Below are positions 5,891 to 13,420 of a stretch of DNA of 16,596 nt, piece after piece. Below the pieces are notes generated by a model that was not told the origin of the DNA, made no database searches, and saw only the letters and a list, made by a program, of their open reading frames with translations. Location of the stretch: assembly GCA_947097615.1 (NCBI GenBank), contig CAMURX010000016.1:1-16596 (forward strand), given 5' to 3'. Origin of the DNA: an uncultured Neisseria sp. GTDB taxonomy: Bacteria; Pseudomonadota; Gammaproteobacteria; Burkholderiales; Neisseriaceae. The position numbers and the translations under genes are program-made. The stretch's first letter is position 1. Every line of letters starts with the position of its first letter.

Positions 5891-5920
5891 TGTTTCACAT
5901 TACATGTTTCACGTGAAACA
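5891..5920. other. parS: parS centromere site with adjacent degenerate half-site
   Basis: Positions 5905-5920 read TGTTTCACGTGAAACA, a perfect 16-bp palindrome identical to the bacterial consensus parS bound by ParB. Just upstream, 5891-5900 reads TGTTTCACAT, matching the first 8 bases of the site. ParB binds parS and spreads to build the partition complex; chromosomal parS sites usually lie near the replication origin. The site is intergenic between waaC and the nicotinamidase gene. No parA or parB gene is in the window. The sequence match is direct; the function is inferred. Confidence 0.88.
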
Positions 5921-5923
5921 CAA

Positions 5924-6562
5924 TTAATTATTTGATTTTAAATATTGTTTTATTTTTTCGGCGTTCGGCAGCAATAATGCGCCCGCCGCCTGCATTTCCT
6001 GCCGCGCCTGTGCGACGGTTTCTTCGGCAATGCCGCGGCAGGCTGCTTCGTTGACGATAACCTGCCAGTCTCCGCCACGACACAGTTGCAGCACGGTATG
6101 TTTGACGCAGTAGTCGGTGGCCAGTCCGCCCACCAAAACAAAACGGGCATTTTGCGCATGCAGCCATTCGATCAGGCCGGTGCTCAACCGTTCTTCGATG
6201 TCGTGATAACACGCTCCGTAGGGGTGCAGCTCGGGATCGACGCCCTTCCATACGCAGAAATTGTAGCCGTCCAAAGCGGGCAGGCCGTCGAGCAGGGCGT
6301 AACCTTCGCTGCCGATTACGGCGTGGGCAACCCAAGTCAAATCCGCGTTTTTCAAACCGGTCGGCTGCAACATATCCACAGGATTATCCACAAGCCATTT
6401 TGCCTGCGGGCTGTGTGCGTCTTTGGTCATTACCCGCAGATCCGCCAAGGCCGCCTGTGCGTTCAATTCCGCTGCGATGGCGTCGCCGCCTGCGACAGGA
6501 AGCTCCGCCGGACAAAGCGGGGTAAAGGTTTTCTGCGCATCGACGTCTATCGAAATAATCAC
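5924..6562 (-). CDS. pncA: Nicotinamidase (isochorismatase-family hydrolase)
   Basis: The protein has 212 residues from the GTG at 6562. It probably deamidates nicotinamide to nicotinate for NAD salvage. Counting from that start, the catalytic triad is visible as Asp8 (DVDAQKTF), Lys106 (VWKGVDPE) and Cys152 (GLATDYCVKH), and the metal site as Asp48 and His50 (MTKDAHSP) with His80 as a likely third ligand. I prefer the GTG start because a near-perfect AAGGAGG lies 5 bases before it. The in-frame ATG at 6580 would put this site inside the coding region and lacks its own. A TATAAT at 6597-6602 on the minus strand supports a short leader. Pyrazinamidase activity is expected of the family. The gene contains two DnaA-box-like sequences. 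Confidence 0.9.
   Translation of the reverse strand: MIISIDVDAQKTFTPLCPAELPVAGGDAIAAELNAQAALADLRVMTKDAHSPQAKWLVDNPVDMLQPTGLKNADLTWVAHAVIGSEGYALLDGLPALDGYNFCVWKGVDPELHPYGACYHDIEERLSTGLIEWLHAQNARFVLVGGLATDYCVKHTVLQLCRGGDWQVIVNEAACRGIAEETVAQARQEMQAAGALLLPNAEKIKQYLKSNN
6372..6392 (+). promoter_or_regulatory. Two tandem DnaA boxes inside pncA
   Basis: 6384-6392 is TTATCCACA, the perfect consensus DnaA box. 6372-6380 is ATATCCACA, one mismatch away. Both have the same orientation, 12 bases start to start. They sit inside the nicotinamidase coding region, so codon choice is a possible alternative explanation for one of them. See the origin findings. Confidence 0.6.
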
Positions 6563-6596
6563 GGCGTCCTCCTTTGGCATTCACAAACAGGGCGGC

Positions 6597-6602
6597 ATTA
6601 TA
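6597..6602 (-). promoter_or_regulatory. -10 element for pncA
   Basis: On the minus strand this reads TATAAT, 34 bases before the preferred GTG start of pncA. No convincing -35 hexamer lies at the normal distance. A start site near 6590 would give a leader of about 28 bases holding the AAGGAGG ribosome binding site. Confidence 0.45.
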
Positions 6603-6622
6603 GCAAAACCGCCCCTGCCCCG

Positions 6623-6631
6623 TGCTACAAT
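6623..6631 (+). promoter_or_regulatory. Extended -10 promoter for trmO
   Basis: TGCTACAAT is an extended -10 (TG-n-TACAAT) 30 bases before the trmO ATG. No good -35 is present, which extended -10 promoters can tolerate. The same nine bases occur upstream of mutS on the minus strand (16379-16387). Confidence 0.45.
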
Positions 6632-6652
6632 CCGCACAACTTTTCAACACAG

Positions 6653-6661
6653 TTATCCACA
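6653..6661 (+). promoter_or_regulatory. Perfect DnaA box abutting the trmO start codon
   Basis: TTATCCACA, the consensus DnaA box, ends directly before the trmO ATG at 6662 and lies about 15 bases downstream of the predicted transcription start. It occupies the place where a ribosome binding site would be, and none is seen. It could be part of an origin cluster, a DnaA-controlled operator, or chance. Confidence 0.65.
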
Positions 6662-7330
6662 ATGCGCCACACCATCGAAACCATAGGCCGCGTCGTTTCC
6701 CCCTATACGCAGAAATTCGGCATTGCCCGCCAGCCGGGGCTGGTTCCGGCGGCGGAAGTCCGCATTGTTTTAGAGCCTCGTTTCGGTGCGGACTCGGTGC
6801 GCGGCTTGGAAACTTTCGGCTATATCTGGCTGCATTTTATTTTCCACGGCGTGTTGAACGAGGGCTGGTCGCCGCTGGTACGGCCGCCGCGCTTGGGCGG
6901 CAAACGGAAAATGGGCGTATTCGCCACTCGCAGCCCGCACCGCCCGAACCATCTCGGCCTGTCGCTGCTGAAACTGGAACGCATAGACTGTGAAAACGGC
7001 GTTTCCCTGATATGCAGCGGCGCGGATTTGCTCGACGGCACGCCGGTGGTCGATATCAAGCCCTACATCCCCTTTGTTGAAGCCAAACCCGACGCGGCAT
7101 CCGGTTTTGCCGGCGAAGCGCCGCCGCTGCTCGACGTGGTTTGGCAAACCGGCGCAGTGGGGCTTTCAGACGGCCTCAACCGCCTAATCGCACAATCCGT
7201 CGCCCAAGACCCGCGCCCCGCCTACCAAGACATTCCCGAACGGATTTATGTAATGGAAATCGCCGGGCTGGCGGTGAAATTCCGCATAAACGGGCGCACG
7301 GCGGTGATTCTGTCGGCAGAGGCCGTCTGA
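6662..7330 (+). CDS. trmO: tRNA (N6-threonylcarbamoyladenosine-37-N6)-methyltransferase TrmO
   Basis: The protein has 222 residues. TrmO (formerly YaeB/TsaA, UPF0066) uses S-adenosylmethionine to methylate t6A37 of threonine tRNAs, giving m6t6A. The family signature ATRSPHRPNHLGLSLLKL is plain in the N-terminal beta-barrel domain, preceded by LETFGYIWLHFIFH. The C-terminal part ends with PERIYVMEIAGLAVKFRI. The ATG at 6662 gives the normal family start (MRHTIETIGRVVSPY); a reading open from 6086 is only pncA antisense. No Shine-Dalgarno sequence is visible, and the bases before the ATG are a DnaA box. An uptake sequence is read in frame at 7165-7176, and a second one (7320-7331) supplies the last two codons and the stop (Ala-Val-stop). 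Confidence 0.93.
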   Translation: MRHTIETIGRVVSPYTQKFGIARQPGLVPAAEVRIVLEPRFGADSVRGLETFGYIWLHFIFHGVLNEGWSPLVRPPRLGGKRKMGVFATRSPHRPNHLGLSLLKLERIDCENGVSLICSGADLLDGTPVVDIKPYIPFVEAKPDAASGFAGEAPPLLDVVWQTGAVGLSDGLNRLIAQSVAQDPRPAYQDIPERIYVMEIAGLAVKFRINGRTAVILSAEAV

Positions 7331-7351
7331 AAACAGGTTTCAGACGGCCTC
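7319..7351. terminator. Shared terminator between convergent trmO and ubiG
   Basis: A perfect 14-bp stem (7319-7332 with 7338-7351) is made by two opposite uptake sequences around a 5-base loop. It sits between two converging genes and includes the trmO stop codon. T runs are short on both sides. Confidence 0.6.
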
Positions 7352-7368
7352 CGTCATGCTCAAACAGT

Positions 7369-8097
7369 TCAAGCAGCCGCAACCGGGCGGCAGGCAACCA
7401 TATAGTTCACATCCACCTTATCGCTTAAAAAATAACGCTGCAATAGCGGGTTGTAACCTAAACCCCTGCTGTCGGCCACATCCAACCCGGCCTGGCGGCA
7501 CATCCGCGCCAGCTCGGCGGGCGTGATGAACTTTTGCCAGTCGTGCGTGCCTTTGGGCACGATGTTCAAAATGTATTCCGCCCCCAAAATCGCGTGCAGA
7601 TAAGATTTCGCGTTGCGGTTGATGGTGGAGAAAAACACCATCCCGTCGGGCTTGGCCAGCTTGGCACAGGCGCGGATCACCGAAGCGGGATCGGGAACGT
7701 GCTCCATCATTTCCATGCAGGTCACTACGTCGTAGGCGTGTGGCGTTTCCGCTGCCAAATCTTCGACACTGACGCAGCGGTAGGACAAATTGTCCAACTG
7801 CTGCGCCTGAGCGTGGTAATGCGCGGTTTCCAGCGATTTTTCCGCCAAATCGATGCCTAGCACTTCGGCCGCGCCGCGTTTGGCGATGCTCTCGCTCAAA
7901 ATGCCGCCGCCGCAACCCACGTCCAGCACCTTTTTTCCCGCCAGATTGGCAAAACCGTCGATATAGTCGAGGCGGATGGGATTGATGTCGTGCAGCGGCT
8001 TGAACTCGCCTTCGCTGTCCCACCATTTTTCCGCCAAACGGCTGAATTTGTCGATTTCGCCGTGATCCACGTTCGGCTTTTGCGCGTCCTGATTCAT
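7369..8097 (-). CDS. ubiG: Ubiquinone biosynthesis O-methyltransferase UbiG
   Basis: This 242-residue S-adenosylmethionine-dependent methyltransferase carries out both O-methylations of the ubiquinone ring (2-polyprenyl-6-hydroxyphenol and 3-demethylubiquinol). The SAM-binding motif [11 protein letters not shown] is near 56-65, the acidic residue of motif II is in [10 protein letters not shown], and the post-motif [11 protein letters not shown] is typical of UbiG. The N-terminal [20 protein letters not shown] is the family hallmark. I chose the ATG at 8097, which has GGAGAAGAG in front. The GTG four codons earlier overlaps that ribosome binding site. A TAAAAT (8128-8133, minus strand) may be the -10. 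It converges on trmO and ends with a weakly conserved tail. Confidence 0.96.
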
Positions 8098-8155
8098 GCT
8101 CTTCTCCACTAAAAAACAATGCGGCGTATTTTAGCCGAAACCGCCCGAGGCGGAC

Positions 8156-8192
8156 GGAAAAAGGCCGTCTGAAACCTTTTCAGACGGCCTTT
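8156..8192 (-). terminator. Terminator of the small exported-protein gene
   Basis: Two opposite uptake sequences give a 15-bp stem (8160-8174 with 8178-8192) around a 3-base loop, followed on the minus strand by five T residues. It lies 12 bases past the stop at 8204 and separates that gene from ubiG. Confidence 0.75.
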
Positions 8193-8203
8193 ATGCCTTC
8201 AAG

Positions 8204-8620
8204 CTATTTCCACTCGGTACACAAAATATTCGATTCACTGCACGAAAGCGCATTGCTTTCCTCTTCACGGCAGGACTGTTTTGCCGCTGCCATCGCTGCC
8301 GCTTTAACACGGTTGCGCGCTTCGTAGCGCTGGCCGTTGACATAAATGCCGCATTCGTAAACCACATTGGTGAGTCGGGCTTTGCCGTCGGCAAAATCGG
8401 CGGCGGTCGGCGCCACCAATCTGGGCGGGGCAGAACCGTTTGTCTGTTCTCCGGCGGGTGCTGCGGGGCGGGCGGATATGCCGGCCTGCCGTTCCAATTC
8501 GGCGATGCGCTGTTTCATGGCGGCGATTTCCGCTTCCAAACGGCCGATGCGGCTGTTGTCTGCGGCGCAGGACAAAGCGGCGGCGGCGGATAAAAGCGCG
8601 ACCAAAAGCGTTTTTTTCAT
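8204..8620 (-). CDS. Small exported protein with coiled coil and four cysteines, function unknown
   Basis: A 138-residue protein that I do not recognise by name. Residues 1-20 look like a signal peptide (two lysines, then a hydrophobic stretch to SCAA). Cys18 could be a lipid-modified cysteine, but the bases of the lipobox (A-L-S-C) are not canonical. Residues 22-47 form heptads typical of a short coiled coil (RLEAEIAAMKQRIAELE). A proline- and alanine-rich linker (50-72) follows, then a C-terminal domain with Cys90, Cys117, Cys127 and Cys134, an even number that suits disulfides in the periplasm. The ATG at 8620 has GGAGAG in front, and TATAAT on the minus strand at 8673-8678 is a likely -10. 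Base composition matches the neighbours, so it is probably an old resident gene. A role in the envelope is an inference from the signal peptide only. Confidence 0.8.
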   Translation of the reverse strand: MKKTLLVALLSAAAALSCAADNSRIGRLEAEIAAMKQRIAELERQAGISARPAAPAGEQTNGSAPPRLVAPTAADFADGKARLTNVVYECGIYVNGQRYEARNRVKAAAMAAAKQSCREEESNALSCSESNILCTEWK

Positions 8621-8672
8621 GATTCTCTCCAATCCCGGAAAAACAAAGCCGCGCACGCGGCAACAGGCGCGG

Positions 8673-8678
8673 ATTATA
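8673..8678 (-). promoter_or_regulatory. -10 element for the small exported-protein gene
   Basis: On the minus strand this reads TATAAT, 52 bases before the ATG at 8620. The -35 region overlaps an uptake sequence and is a poor match. Confidence 0.45.
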
Positions 8679-8805
8679 TCGGATTCAGGCCGTCTGAAAG
8701 CCTGTTTTTTGCCGTTTGGCAGACAGGGTTTCATTGCTTTTGCCTTTTCAGACGGCCTGACCCGTTTGAGGCCGTCTGAAAAGGCGGTTCAGGCCAAACC
8801 GCAAA

Positions 8806-9000
8806 CCAAAAAATTAAATATATAAAAAGACGATTTGGATGATGTGCCACCTCTTTTGTGGATAAACCAGTTTTTCCTTTTTCTTTCAATATTTATCAGC
8901 AGATAAAAACCTGCGTAAAACGCATCTTCGTGTTTTGGGAAAAATGTGGATGTTTTTCAGACGGCTTTTCTGTTTTGTGGACAGTTTTTCTTTATCCACT
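8806..9000. other. AT-rich DnaA-box cluster, candidate replication origin core
   Basis: This lies in the 507-base divergent gap between the exported-protein gene and lpxC. An AT-rich run at 8806-8830 (with AAATTAAATATATAAAAAG) could be an unwinding element. Nearby are a perfect DnaA box on the minus strand (8857-8865), TTATCCACT at 8992-9000 (one mismatch), and two weaker matches, TGTGGATGT (8945-8953) and TGTGGACAG (8976-8984). A second AT-rich stretch spans about 8871-8907. The rest of the gap holds uptake sequences at 8687, 8747, 8769, 8956 and 9030. Identification as an origin is inference; the motifs are seen directly. Confidence 0.5.
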
Positions 9001-9127
9001 GCTTGCCGCTTCTTTTTCCGTCTCTAAAAAGGCCGTCTGAAAAGATTGCGAAAATCTATTGATGCCGCTGCTGCCGCAAAGAGCGCTTTGCCGTATCATG
9101 CGACGGCTTTTCAATAAGGAAAAAACC

Positions 9128-10048
9128 ATGTTGCAGAGAACCTTGGCCAAATCCGTCAGCGCCACCGGCGTCGGCCTGCATTCGGGCGAACGCGTGACGC
9201 TTACCCTGCACCCTGCCGCGGAAAACAAGGGCATTATGTTCCGCCGCAGCGACCTGCCGGGCGAACAGGGCGAAGCCGTCAAACTCACGCCCTACCTCAT
9301 CAACGACACCCGCCTGTCGTCCACCGTCGTCACCGAAAACGGCGTGCGCATCGGCACGATAGAACACATCATGTCGGCTCTGGCGGCCTACGGTATCGAC
9401 AATGTCCTGATTGAGCTGGACGCGCCAGAAATCCCGATTATGGACGGCTCCAGCCTGCCCTTTATTTATCTGTTGCAGGATGCGGGCATCGTCGATCAGA
9501 AAGCGCAGAAGCGTTTTTTGAAAATTGTCAAACCCGTTGCCGTCGAAACCGAAGGCAAGCGCGTGGCCCTCACGCCCTACAACGGATTCAAAGTCAGCCT
9601 CACCATCGAGTTTGACCATCCCGTCTTCAACCGCAGCACCCCCACTTTTGAAATCGATTTCGCCGACCAGTCCTATATCGACGAAATCGCCCGCGCCCGC
9701 ACCTTCGGTTTTATGCACGAAGTGGAAATGATGCGCTCGCACGGCCTCGGCCTCGGCGGCAACCTGTCCAACGCCATCGTGATCGACGACACCGACGTGC
9801 TCAATCCCGAAGGCCTGCGCTATCCCGACGAATTCGTCCGCCACAAAATCCTCGATGCCATCGGCGACCTCTACATCGCCGGCCATCCCATCATCGGCGC
9901 GTTCGAGGGCTACAAATCCGGCCATGCCGTCAACAACGCCCTGCTGCGTGCCCTGTTTGCCGACGAAAGCGCCTACGAATGGGCGGAATTTCCCGACAAC
10001 ACCGGCCTGCCGCCCGCCTTTTTCCGTGTTGACGGACAAGAGCCGTAA
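9128..10048 (+). CDS. lpxC: UDP-3-O-acyl-N-acetylglucosamine deacetylase
   Basis: This 306-residue cytosolic zinc enzyme catalyses the committed deacetylation step of lipid A synthesis. All expected residues are in place: the zinc ligands His80 (GTIEHIMSAL), His239 and Asp243 (FVRHKILDAIGD), the catalytic Glu79 next to the first ligand, and His266 (YKSGHAVNN). The N-terminal MLQRTLAKSVSATGVGLHSG is the family start. The ATG at 9128 follows AAGGA with 7 bases between. The reading open from 9059 would add 23 non-conserved residues. It is read rightwards, away from the DnaA-box cluster. In pathogenic Neisseria the pilE gene lies next to lpxC; none is seen here. The gene ends in TAA, followed by an uptake sequence at 10059. 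Confidence 0.98.
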   Translation: MLQRTLAKSVSATGVGLHSGERVTLTLHPAAENKGIMFRRSDLPGEQGEAVKLTPYLINDTRLSSTVVTENGVRIGTIEHIMSALAAYGIDNVLIELDAPEIPIMDGSSLPFIYLLQDAGIVDQKAQKRFLKIVKPVAVETEGKRVALTPYNGFKVSLTIEFDHPVFNRSTPTFEIDFADQSYIDEIARARTFGFMHEVEMMRSHGLGLGGNLSNAIVIDDTDVLNPEGLRYPDEFVRHKILDAIGDLYIAGHPIIGAFEGYKSGHAVNNALLRALFADESAYEWAEFPDNTGLPPAFFRVDGQEP

Positions 10049-10230
10049 AACATTTCCCGCCGTCTGAAAACAAAGTTTCAACAAAGTGAAAACGCGGTGG
10101 GAAACGCCGCATTTGTCCACCGCAATCTCAGGCCGTCTGAAAAGCATCCCCTGCCGTCCACAGAGAGAAAAACATCTGTCCGCAGCTTTTCAGACGGCCT
10201 GAAACCTTGTTTCCGATAAGAAAAACAGAG

Positions 10231-10239
10231 TTATCCACA
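10231..10239 (+). promoter_or_regulatory. Perfect DnaA box between lpxC and gnd
   Basis: TTATCCACA, consensus DnaA box, followed 20 bases later by an AT-rich stretch. It is the fourth perfect copy in the window. Confidence 0.6.
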
Positions 10240-10300
10240 CAACCGTCAGCCCTTCATCAAAAATATCATTTTATAAACCGTATTTTAATAAAGCGGCTTC

Positions 10301-10405
10301 TATAGCGAACCAACACGAAAATCTACGGCGTTGCTGCGCCTTGCCGTACTACTTGTACTGTCTGCGGCTTTGCTGCCTTGTATCTTTCCGTGTTGGTTCA
10401 CTATA
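10301..10405. mobile_element. Correia-like repeat enclosed element (CREE), short form
   Basis: A 105-bp miniature element bounded by inverted repeats TATAGCGAACCAACACG (10301-10317) and CGTGTTGGTTCACTATA (10389-10405), which match at 16 of 17 positions. The core contains CGCCTTGCCGTACTA and TTGTACTGTCTGCGGC, which from memory are core segments of the Neisseria Correia element. The length fits the known 104-108-bp short class. The termini share TATAG with the classic Correia ends but differ from their GTGGATTAAC, so this is a diverged subfamily. The element carries no transposase and would have been moved in trans. It ends 91 bases before gnd and could supply promoter or RNase III processing sequences; TATATT at 10404-10409 is a possible -10. 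Confidence 0.85.
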
Positions 10406-10496
10406 TATTTTTCCCGCAGCACTGGAAATTGGCGCTTGCGCCGCCATTCGGGTAAAGTGGCGGCCGTTTTCCAACTCAACCTCCGAAGGGCATCGA

Positions 10497-12159: not shown

Positions 12160-12298
12160 GTAAGAAGAGCAATACAAAAAACGGCTAGAAAAACATAAAA
12201 AACACATCCAAAAACAACTAGAACATGCTCAGGCAGAAATCTCTCGTCATCACCAAATTGAGTTCTATATCGAACACCTTCATAAAGCATTTATTCAA

Positions 12299-12907
12299 AT
12301 GATTACCTCTCAAACAGTTTTTGCCTCAGTGCAACGCGATATGGACAAACACAAAACCACCGCAGAACTATTGAACAGGGCAAACGAAGAATTTATGGAA
12401 CGCTTCTCCGCAGACTTTCCGGATTTCGCCAGAAAAAGGGAAGAGATGCAAAAAAAATTCCACAATGGATATGTGCAACATAATATTGCTGGCTATATGA
12501 ATAAATCACCGGAAGAACAATATGAATTTTCGTTGATGATGGCAGACAAGATGATTGGGTTGGACGAGCTTTATAAAACACCAGATGGCAAACAATATCT
12601 TGATAAATTCTTCAAAAGCAGAAACATAGACATTAGCAAAAAACCATCCGATATGCTTTTATCCGATTTCTTAGGAAAAGAATTGGAACAAGGACATATT
12701 AAGGTGGATTTAACTATGGTGTTATTGGAGGCTGGCAATAATGCATATGAAAATGTCAGCTCTCCCAAAGCGAAAAGAATGGCTTCACTTGCATCTAGTA
12801 ATATGGAACACAAAAAACTACAACCCACACCAAATTTGTCAGATGTTCGTAGCCAGCAAGATATGATTGAAGAAAACCAAAGAAACTCTCAGCAATATCA
12901 GATGTAA
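12299..12907 (+). CDS. Unknown hydrophilic protein, probably 5'-truncated
   Basis: 202 residues from the ATG at 12299; I recognise no family. It is charged and rich in Glu, Lys, Gln, Met and Asn, with helix-forming stretches (17-60 and 76-92) and no signal peptide or membrane segment. Base composition is much more AT-rich than the flanking genes, and no uptake sequence occurs in it, which suggests transfer from elsewhere. There is no Shine-Dalgarno sequence before the ATG. The same frame stays open upstream to 12164 and reads as a plausible protein (EEQYKKRLEKHKKH, later QLEHAQAEISRHHQIEF) with no ATG, GTG or TTG. The stop TAA at 12161 comes two bases after the large hairpin. The likeliest reading is a gene that lost its 5' end. 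It converges on the exported-protein gene at 12944 and shares its terminator. Confidence 0.55.
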   Translation: MITSQTVFASVQRDMDKHKTTAELLNRANEEFMERFSADFPDFARKREEMQKKFHNGYVQHNIAGYMNKSPEEQYEFSLMMADKMIGLDELYKTPDGKQYLDKFFKSRNIDISKKPSDMLLSDFLGKELEQGHIKVDLTMVLLEAGNNAYENVSSPKAKRMASLASSNMEHKKLQPTPNLSDVRSQQDMIEENQRNSQQYQM

Positions 12908-12936
12908 AAATAGTGTCCAATAGGACACTATTTTTT
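12907..12936. terminator. Bidirectional terminator between convergent genes
   Basis: AAAATAGTGTCC (12907-12918) pairs perfectly over 12 bp with GGACACTATTTT (12923-12934) around a 4-base loop, and T runs follow on both strands. The TAA of the upstream gene overlaps its first base. Unlike nearly all other terminators here, it contains no uptake sequence. Confidence 0.88.
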
Positions 12937-12943
12937 AATCAGA

Positions 12944-13327
12944 TTATAGATAGTCATCTATAACACTACGTCCTGATTTGCGGTATTCTCTTTCTTTCCT
13001 TGCTGACTCAATAGCAGCACGTTCAACATTAGCTTCCCACTCTTTGCTTCCAACAGCAGGCTTTCTCTTCGCCTGTTTCGCAACCCGTTTCCCACTTTGT
13101 TTTACCCCAGCTTTAGCAGCACCTTTACCACTAACTTCAACCAAAGAGTCCTGTGCCCTGCCATTCAAATACTCATAACGTCCCGTGCTGTCATAACCTA
13201 TTTGGCTGTACAACTTGGCATCCGCTGCGCTTATGCCTTTTTCCCCCAATTCATACGCGGATGCCGCCATCGGTGCTGCGAGCAAGGTTGTTATCATTGC
13301 AATTTGTAAGATTTTGTTGGTTTTCAT
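12944..13327 (-). CDS. Small secreted basic protein, function unknown
   Basis: 127 residues from the ATG at 13327. Residues 1-24 are a clear Sec signal peptide (MKTNKILQIA, a hydrophobic core, then APMAASA before YEL). The mature part (about 103 residues) starts acidic, then has a strongly basic middle (68-90, with KQSGKRVAKQAKRK) and a charged helical C-terminal end. It has no cysteine. I recognise no family. An alternative ATG four codons earlier (13339) has no ribosome binding site; GGAT before 13327 is weak. Upstream on the minus strand, TATAAT (13386-13391) directly abuts four copies of a heptamer repeat, so expression may vary with copy number. It sits in the region that lacks uptake sequences and is more AT-rich than its surroundings, so acquisition by transfer is likely. 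Confidence 0.72.
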   Translation of the reverse strand: MKTNKILQIAMITTLLAAPMAASAYELGEKGISAADAKLYSQIGYDSTGRYEYLNGRAQDSLVEVSGKGAAKAGVKQSGKRVAKQAKRKPAVGSKEWEANVERAAIESARKEREYRKSGRSVIDDYL

Positions 13328-13385
13328 ATTTTTATCCATAAAAAAGTTGTTAAAAAATACCTTCCAAATCAATGAAAGTGTTAAA

Positions 13386-13391
13386 ATTATA
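13386..13391 (-). promoter_or_regulatory. Perfect -10 box of the secreted-protein gene
   Basis: On the minus strand this reads TATAAT, 59 bases before the ATG at 13327. The heptamer tandem repeat starts at the very next base upstream, so the spacer and -35 region fall in the repeats. A TTTACA (-35-like) lies beyond them at 13428-13433, 36 bases away at the present copy number. Confidence 0.65.
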
Positions 13392-13420
13392 CTGCACGCT
13401 GCACGCTGCACGCTGCACGC
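13392..13420. repeat. Heptamer tandem repeat, (CTGCACG)x4
   Basis: Four perfect, adjacent copies of CTGCACG (13392-13398, 13399-13405, 13406-13412, 13413-13419) and one further C. Such short tandem repeats change length by slipped-strand mispairing, a common route to phase variation in Neisseria. It is placed where the -35 to -10 spacer of the secreted-protein gene should be. Confidence 0.9.

Follow-up and report, generated by a model that had tools for sequence, protein, structure and literature searches.

Two inverted oriC-like modules around lpxC form a probable dnaA-detached chromosomal origin in Neisseriaceae

Where does a Neisseria-type bacterium start to copy its chromosome when DnaA boxes and parS lie together at a locus that carries no dnaA? 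This question was raised by a stretch of DNA of 16,596 nucleotides from an uncultured Neisseria sp. (hereafter the window), in which a first-pass annotation, made from the letters alone, had proposed a replication origin. We find that the window very probably contains the site where chromosome copying starts, far from dnaA, and that this chromosomal origin of Neisseriaceae likely consists of two inverted oriC modules around lpxC. The proposal of an origin region is thus supported, while its view of the boxes as one loose region missed the twin-module anatomy. The origin tests (box density, skew, conservation and dnaA distance) were done in Neisseriaceae relatives of the window.

DnaA boxes and parS cluster around lpxC, far from dnaA

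The perfect DnaA box TTATCCACA occurs exactly at 6384 (+), 6653 (+), 8857 (-) and 10231 (+), as first annotated, compared with a mean of 0.07 copies in 200 dinucleotide shuffles of the window, in which four copies were never reached. The perfect parS described at the same time is likewise present as an exact 16-mer, and it is the sole site at up to three mismatches in the window (expected 0.10). The ORFs that we scanned reproduce the reported gene identities and orientations, gltX, an ogt-like gene, YigZ, etfA/B, waaC and a nicotinamidase-like gene reading leftward, trmO, lpxC and gnd rightward, and ubiG and mutS leftward. The parS site and the two boxes on the left are placed as follows:

5905..5920, no strand assigned: exact parS palindrome of 16 bp, in the gap from waaC to the nicotinamidase-like gene
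6384..6392, + strand: outlying DnaA box, within the nicotinamidase-like gene
6653..6661, + strand: outlying DnaA box, immediately ahead of the trmO ATG

These two boxes are conserved outlying sites, apart from both modules described below, and their context and spacing (267-270 bp) are kept in four loci (G016, G025, G018 and G053).

Counting perfect boxes in 30 lpxC-centred stretches of relatives gave 234, or 7.84 per 20 kb, and 77 background samples from four genomes gave 19, or 0.25 per 20 kb, that is, an enrichment around lpxC of about 31-fold over the sampled background in these Neisseriaceae. Chance clustering is ruled out by this density together with the shuffles. The boxes are also conserved in position, a perfect TGTGGATAA being found 100-360 bp upstream of lpxC in 24 of 30 loci, and 64 of 65 parS-like sites of relatives fall within 50 kb of lpxC. 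Counting against the locus, five perfect boxes of G015 form another cluster at 536-538 kb, well away from lpxC.

None of the 20 window ORFs run against NCBIfam was dnaA, dnaN, parAB or gidA. The detachment of the origin from dnaA, which had been predicted, is borne out by dnaA-to-lpxC distances of 122-691 kb in 32 relatives; a dnaA next door, a common trait of oriC that is not required, was found in none of them.

GC skew switches at the lpxC locus in relatives

A skew minimum at the locus had also been anticipated, and sampling of four relatives agreed with this in part. An origin-type switch lies at lpxC in G019 and G021 (0 of 300 permutations each) and about one sampling step off in G054, and no clear switch could be assigned to the lpxC locus in G016. 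The switch is 497 kb from dnaA in G019; for G021 this distance is 229 kb. In the window itself, the cumulative minimum falls near 13.3 kb, with none at 5.9-10.2 kb, which says little because the stretch is so short that gene orientation dominates. Taken from the relatives, the location of the origin is well supported by box density, parS and skew, the last in two to three genomes.

Two inverted modules flank lpxC

The boxes at 8857 and 10231 each head one module of about 195 bp, present in two copies that are inverted and flank lpxC. Each module begins with an AT-rich GATGA stretch, followed by box1, an IHF-like site and more boxes up to +135 (offsets counted in the module direction). Both copies match models R1 and R2, R1 having been built without the window, and 600 shuffled windows gave no module match with a profile earlier than these two models. 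The features are:

8810..9004, + strand: candidate oriC module A, upstream of lpxC (R1 75.5 bits, E 4.4e-23; R2 70.9 bits)
8810..8845, + strand: A, AT-rich stretch with GATGA, presumed to be an unwinding element, function inferred
8857..8865, - strand: A, box1, perfect R1-like DnaA box
8884..8906, + strand: A, IHF-like stretch, with a poor match at +18 and the one-mismatch TATCAGCAGATAA at 8894-8906 (+28)
8945..8953, - strand: A, middle box-like site TGTGGATGT (+88), two mismatches
8976..8984, - strand: A, box2, degenerate TGTGGACAG (+119)
8992..9000, + strand: A, box3, inverted TTATCCACT (+135)
9128..10048, + strand: lpxC (TIGR00325), the spacer gene separating the modules
10086..10277, - strand: candidate oriC module B, inverted, downstream of lpxC (R1 68.5 bits, E 6.8e-21; R2 59.7 bits)
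10113..10121, + strand: B, box2, degenerate, GGTGGACAA in module direction
10200..10212, - strand: B, IHF-like site, two mismatches, +18 past box1
10231..10239, + strand: B, box1, perfect DnaA box, TGTGGATAA in module direction
10253..10275, - strand: B, AT-rich stretch with GATGA, presumed to be an unwinding element, function inferred

In the window, each box2 departs from the perfect box at two positions, and the IHF-like sites match poorly. Among the features by which an oriC is recognized, the locus has a DnaA-box cluster above chance, a parS nearby (common at origins, not universal) and, as a sequence feature, an AT-rich presumed unwinding element beside an R1-type box; the skew minimum is seen in relatives only (G019 and G021, with G054 near). 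DnaA-trios are of the TAG type, and we do not claim one here, the module having GATGA repeats instead. A reading of the boxes as simple lpxC and trmO promoter sites was rejected, given two copies with one layout and the coincidence of parS and skew.

Both modules are conserved in relatives

Searching with model R1 gave 56 matches at E<=1e-5 in 32 genomes, all within 46 kb of lpxC, and 2 of the 32 genomes lacked a match; with R2, a match was absent from 5 of 64. Two or more modules were found in 48 of the 64 genomes. Neighbouring modules on the same contig form 47 pairs, 32 inverted (29 of these with the AT-rich ends outward) and 15 direct. Most relatives have an IHF-like site in the module; with at most one mismatch, on the + strand, it follows box1 at +17 in five and at +18 in eight of 33 modules. 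At a distance of 1 Mb, G016 shows a partial match to the module (E 3e-5). A contig scan gave no Neisseria among the matches listed (80 loci).

The locus could be an origin in which one module alone fires, A in most species, the other being a relic or spare copy. Such a division would fit the 12 of 64 genomes that have a single module, as well as the state of box1, perfect in 16 of 20 A copies versus 8 of 17 B copies (sorted from 43 rows, with 6 set aside), from which B is possibly weaker. We nevertheless consider it unlikely, given that B is a conserved family of its own, with an invariant middle box and a mean column identity of 62% (60% in the A family), and that the A-B pairing persists in most of the 64 genomes, at spacings of 1-9 kb. 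Nor is A alone favored by the local skew, which in 13 of 14 loci takes higher values past B than in the interval from lpxC to B; in that interval it is negative in 13 of 14, and past B it is positive in only 7 of 14. In one genome, G021, the sign changes at about 1604 kb, beside the lpxC-side module. Coding-strand bias dominates the skew at fourfold-degenerate sites, so that skew gives no claim on the main starting module.

Comparison with known origins and control sites

Like the modules here, E. coli oriC has an R1-type box adjoining an AT-rich stretch and further boxes, the last of them inverted. In addition, GATCAACAACCTG, the core IHF site of oriC, begins 18 nt after R1, comparable to the IHF-like site at +17/+18 in our modules, and E. 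coli oriC, like this locus, is not adjacent to dnaA. In contrast, it is a single module whose last box lies at +180 (+135 in ours) and which has no inverted twin around a gene.

Bacillus subtilis and Helicobacter pylori have bipartite origins, in which two DnaA-box regions flank a spacer gene and together cover at most about 2 kb (PMC4285127, PMC8235120). The present locus shares this arrangement, with a box-bearing part on either side of a spacer gene. However, the spacer of the bipartite origins is usually dnaA rather than lpxC, and their DNA unwinding element (DUE) lies in one part, whereas both parts here have an AT-rich element; the two parts at this locus are also copies of each other. 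Because both subregions have an AT-rich element, we do not class the locus with the described bipartite type, and call it bipartite-like at most.

Module A might alternatively be the origin and B an adjacent DnaA control site, akin to datA or DARS. In the accessible text of PMC10380432, E. coli datA, which lies near oriC, and DARS2 have DnaA boxes and an IHF site, much as B has boxes and an IHF-like site, and the boxes of B are often weaker; the same text presents these as control sites and mentions for them neither an origin-type unwinding element nor a twin relation to the origin. B shares with A both the AT-rich element beside box1 and the box spacing, and its AT-rich end holds the fourth least stable distinct 50-mer of the window, which makes the control-site reading quite improbable.

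Proposed initiation mechanism

We propose that A and B act jointly in initiation. In each module, box1 would be the loading site for DnaA; with the DNA bent by IHF, the DnaA array would then melt the adjoining AT-rich stretch. The inward-facing box arrays of A and B may touch, looping out lpxC, and the outcome would be a composite (bipartite) origin with one unwinding element at either end, while ParB on parS, 3 kb off, would tag newly made origins and drive their movement. In its general form, to which we give an even chance, Neisseriaceae chromosomes would have a symmetric composite origin of two DUE-bearing, E. coli-like modules, both used in initiation, anciently duplicated, separately maintained, and inverted around lpxC or a few neighboring genes.

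That the locus is instead a DnaA-box-rich titration or regulatory cluster, the true origin lying elsewhere, for example at dnaA, is highly improbable: boxes do reach 10-20 kb past the modules in several genomes, and the skew is unclean in two of four, but the box cluster falls together with parS and the skew switch at the locus, and we reject an origin at dnaA in view of the distant skew switch and the few boxes there (0, 1, 2 and 2 perfect boxes per 20 kb in four dnaA regions).

If the symmetric composite origin is true, one chromosome would normally have a pair of unwinding sites separated by one to several kb, and a conserved, inverted, unwinding-capable pair would differ from the described split origins, with their DUE in one part. 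Two questions thereby become directly testable: whether a single chromosome uses two start sites, and what limits firing to one event per cycle. With the origin placed, replichores, gene dosage and analyses of read depth are also fixed for a medically important family. The N. meningitidis chromosome record was rotated to dnaA in one study, according to the accessible part of its text (PMC7046676); Neisseria records may thus start at dnaA, though this gene is 122-691 kb from the locus in 32 relatives. The titles and abstracts that we searched contained no Neisseria oriC layout; most subscription papers were outside this search, and an earlier description is possible.

For the related genus Laribacter, an Ori-Finder prediction of oriC in L. 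hongkongensis comprises eight DnaA boxes; the accessible text describes neither twin modules nor where this oriC lies with respect to lpxC (PMC3135505). Among outgroups, weaker module matches were seen away from lpxC in Deefgea (E 9e-9) and in two Vogesella (E 1e-5 and 5e-5), and waaA is present in both Vogesella stretches with a match.

A probable origin region around lpxC

The first-pass annotation had proposed a replication origin region in the window from four perfect DnaA boxes (TTATCCACA) and one perfect parS. These sites lie where it placed them, the number of boxes is far above chance, and its gene identities proved correct among the ORFs scanned, three of which were assigned to no family. 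The features of the window are as follows.

Genes (ORFs scanned): gltX, ogt-like, YigZ, etfA/B, waaC, nicotinamidase-like, trmO, ubiG, lpxC, gnd, mutS
5892-5920: a second parS half-site (TGTTTCAC), closely followed by the perfect parS
6384 and 6653: perfect DnaA boxes
8810-9004 (+): oriC-like module A, upstream of lpxC
10277-10086 (-): oriC-like module B, downstream of lpxC
10302-10408: element with inverted-repeat ends like CTATAGCGAACCAACACGAAAA / TTTCCGTGTTGGTTCACTATATA, between module B and gnd
12256-13411: stretch of low GC content (about 35-45%), between gnd and mutS
12299-12907 (+): ORF in the low-GC stretch
12944-13411 (-): second ORF in the low-GC stretch

All whole-genome statements come from relatives in the family of G001 (a Snodgrassella), of which 83 genomes were searched and 79 have lpxC. 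Among the matches listed, the LpxC of the window is at most 85% identical to theirs, so that its own species is probably absent from the relatives listed. Near lpxC, 30 stretches of about 20 kb hold 234 perfect boxes (7.84 per 20 kb), compared with 19 in 77 background samples from four genomes, all more than 50 kb from lpxC (0.25 per 20 kb; 80 drawn, three dropped as nearer). Numbers per locus are uneven, from 1 to 24, with at most two in the relatives G007, G020, G021, G032 and G033; boxes are dense 13-30 kb off lpxC, near parS, in G021 and G032 (10 and 12 in 20 kb). Genome-wide box lists are complete for G015, G019 and G023: 18 of 45 sites lie within 16 kb around lpxC in G019, and 7 of 37 within 11 kb in G015. 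Allowing one mismatch, parS is present in 34 of 35 genomes; in the 31 with one large contig (G072, G081 and G084 excluded), 64 of 65 parS-like sites are no more than 50 kb from lpxC, the nearest being 2.0-3.8 kb away in 16 of the 31. The distance from lpxC to dnaA is 122-691 kb (32 genomes) and to parB 49-1012 kb (28 genomes searched). In the four dnaA regions read, perfect boxes per 20 kb number 0, 1, 2 and 2.

GC skew was sampled in twenty 20-kb pieces per genome, and scores were compared with 300 permutations. In G019 (lpxC at 2417 kb) the skew switches from negative to positive somewhere within 2350-2480 kb, and in G021 (lpxC at 1604 kb) somewhere within 1574-1666 kb; 0 of 300 permutations reached either score, and the opposite switch is roughly half a chromosome distant in both. 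For G054 the coarse switch falls at 1242-1354 kb versus lpxC at 1174 kb (1 of 300 permutations), and in finer samples the sign first changes at about 1175 kb and is mixed up to 1250 kb. Finer samples of G019, from 2340 to 2460 kb, show weak and mixed skew, and the score of G016 was reached by 91 of 300 permutations.

Origins distant from dnaA are already known, as in E. coli, and the way older records are numbered may already imply the location of the Neisseria origin. No description of a twin-module Neisseriaceae origin was found in searches of an open-licence full-text library.

Two inverted modules flank lpxC

The module layout was derived by aligning the relatives' sequence upstream of lpxC on its DnaA box. 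Its common form is an AT-rich stretch containing GATGAT..GATGA, then a short spacer, box1 (TGTGGATAA), box2 at about +118 (nt from box1) and, at about +135, box3 in inverted orientation. When a profile was built from 18 relatives without the window, it matched the window twice, upstream (+) and downstream (-) of lpxC, and gave no match in 600 shuffles, 300 of the whole window and 300 by block. Model R1, likewise built without the window from 16 A copies, detects A with E 4e-23 and B with E 7e-21, and R2 (14 B copies, window excluded) again detects both; the proposed boxes at 8857 and 10231 are their respective box1. The other two, 6384 and 6653, keep their context and 267-270 bp spacing in four relatives (G016, G025, G018 and G053); the trmO ATG follows immediately on box 6653 in the window and in two of these (G016 and G025), and in the other two (G018 and G053) the box overlaps an ATG.

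The two window modules agree in 56% of aligned columns. Mean identity is 0.495 among A copies, 0.511 among B copies, and 0.474 or 0.486 between A and B from different genomes or the same one. The middle box is invariant in B copies and degenerate in A copies, and in a weakly supported tree the copies of G016, G025, G029 and the window are intermixed. From these alignments we read A and B as an old duplication whose copies were kept apart, with some apparent homogenisation among the window's neighbours.

R1, applied in 32 genomes to the 75 candidates per genome that ranked best at first look, matched 56 times at E<=1e-5 and never farther than 46 kb from lpxC. Of these genomes, 22 have two matches, 2 have three, 6 have one and 2 have none; for the 15 that supplied an A copy to the model, the A matches are so by construction. 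R2, with stricter filters (38 candidates per genome, E<=1e-4), was run on 64 of the 83 genomes, 14 of the 64 having supplied a B copy: 40 have two matches, 2 have three, 17 have one and 5 have none. Merging the R2 matches with the R1 rows missing from them places a module in 60 of 64 genomes, and two or more in 48. Of the neighbouring pairs on one contig, 47 in all, 32 are inverted, with the AT-rich ends facing outward in 29, and 15 are direct; in three genomes the pair is split over two contigs. Spacing is 1.0-1.5 kb in ten inverted pairs, which leaves space for just lpxC, as in the window, and 3.0-3.5 kb in fourteen. The direct pairs of G017, G021, G027, G032 and G052 are separated by 16.3-16.7 kb, an arrangement suggestive of an inverted or inserted segment carrying one module and parS.

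Besides its two modules, G016 has a partial match at 1 Mb from lpxC (G016:C1:1210348-1210476; E 3e-5), which covers model positions 61-199. G015 has five perfect boxes clustered far from lpxC (G015:C1:535929-538411), where the R1 search gave no strong module match. Two Vogesella loci show weaker matches (L267 4436-4595, L268 4473-4807) among 10 and 7 perfect boxes in 9 kb, within about 1 kb of waaA and away from lpxC, possibly an older origin position.

Likeness to known origins

Among 33 modules, an IHF-like site with at most one mismatch on the + strand starts at +17 in 5 and +18 in 8, and elsewhere at offsets 8 to 59 only in the window's A (+28); counting both strands adds five single matches (20, 20, 21, 24 and 51). 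With two mismatches allowed, +17 is found in 10 and +18 in 15. In E. coli oriC (named record), the IHF site GATCAACAACCTG, which is two mismatches from the consensus, starts 18 nt after R1. In sequence, each module thus resembles the unwinding part of an origin of the E. coli kind. The putative steps would be binding of DnaA and IHF, melting, looping and use of both copies. In stacking energy, the fourth and fifth least stable distinct 50-mers of the window are 10256-10305 in B and 8861-8910 in A, the latter beginning within box1; the three less stable ones are two at 12.9-13.4 kb, in the low-GC stretch, and one next to parS.

The inward-facing box arrays flanking a spacer gene are also reminiscent of the split origins known from B. 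subtilis and H. pylori. There, the spacer is looped out by DnaA bound to both parts (PMC8235120) and the DUE lies in one part (PMC4285127); here, by contrast, both modules have an AT-rich element.

Neither ORF of the low-GC stretch matched NCBIfam or Pfam, and the stretch is possibly acquired DNA. The element at 10302-10408 is reminiscent of Correia-type small Neisseria repeat elements.
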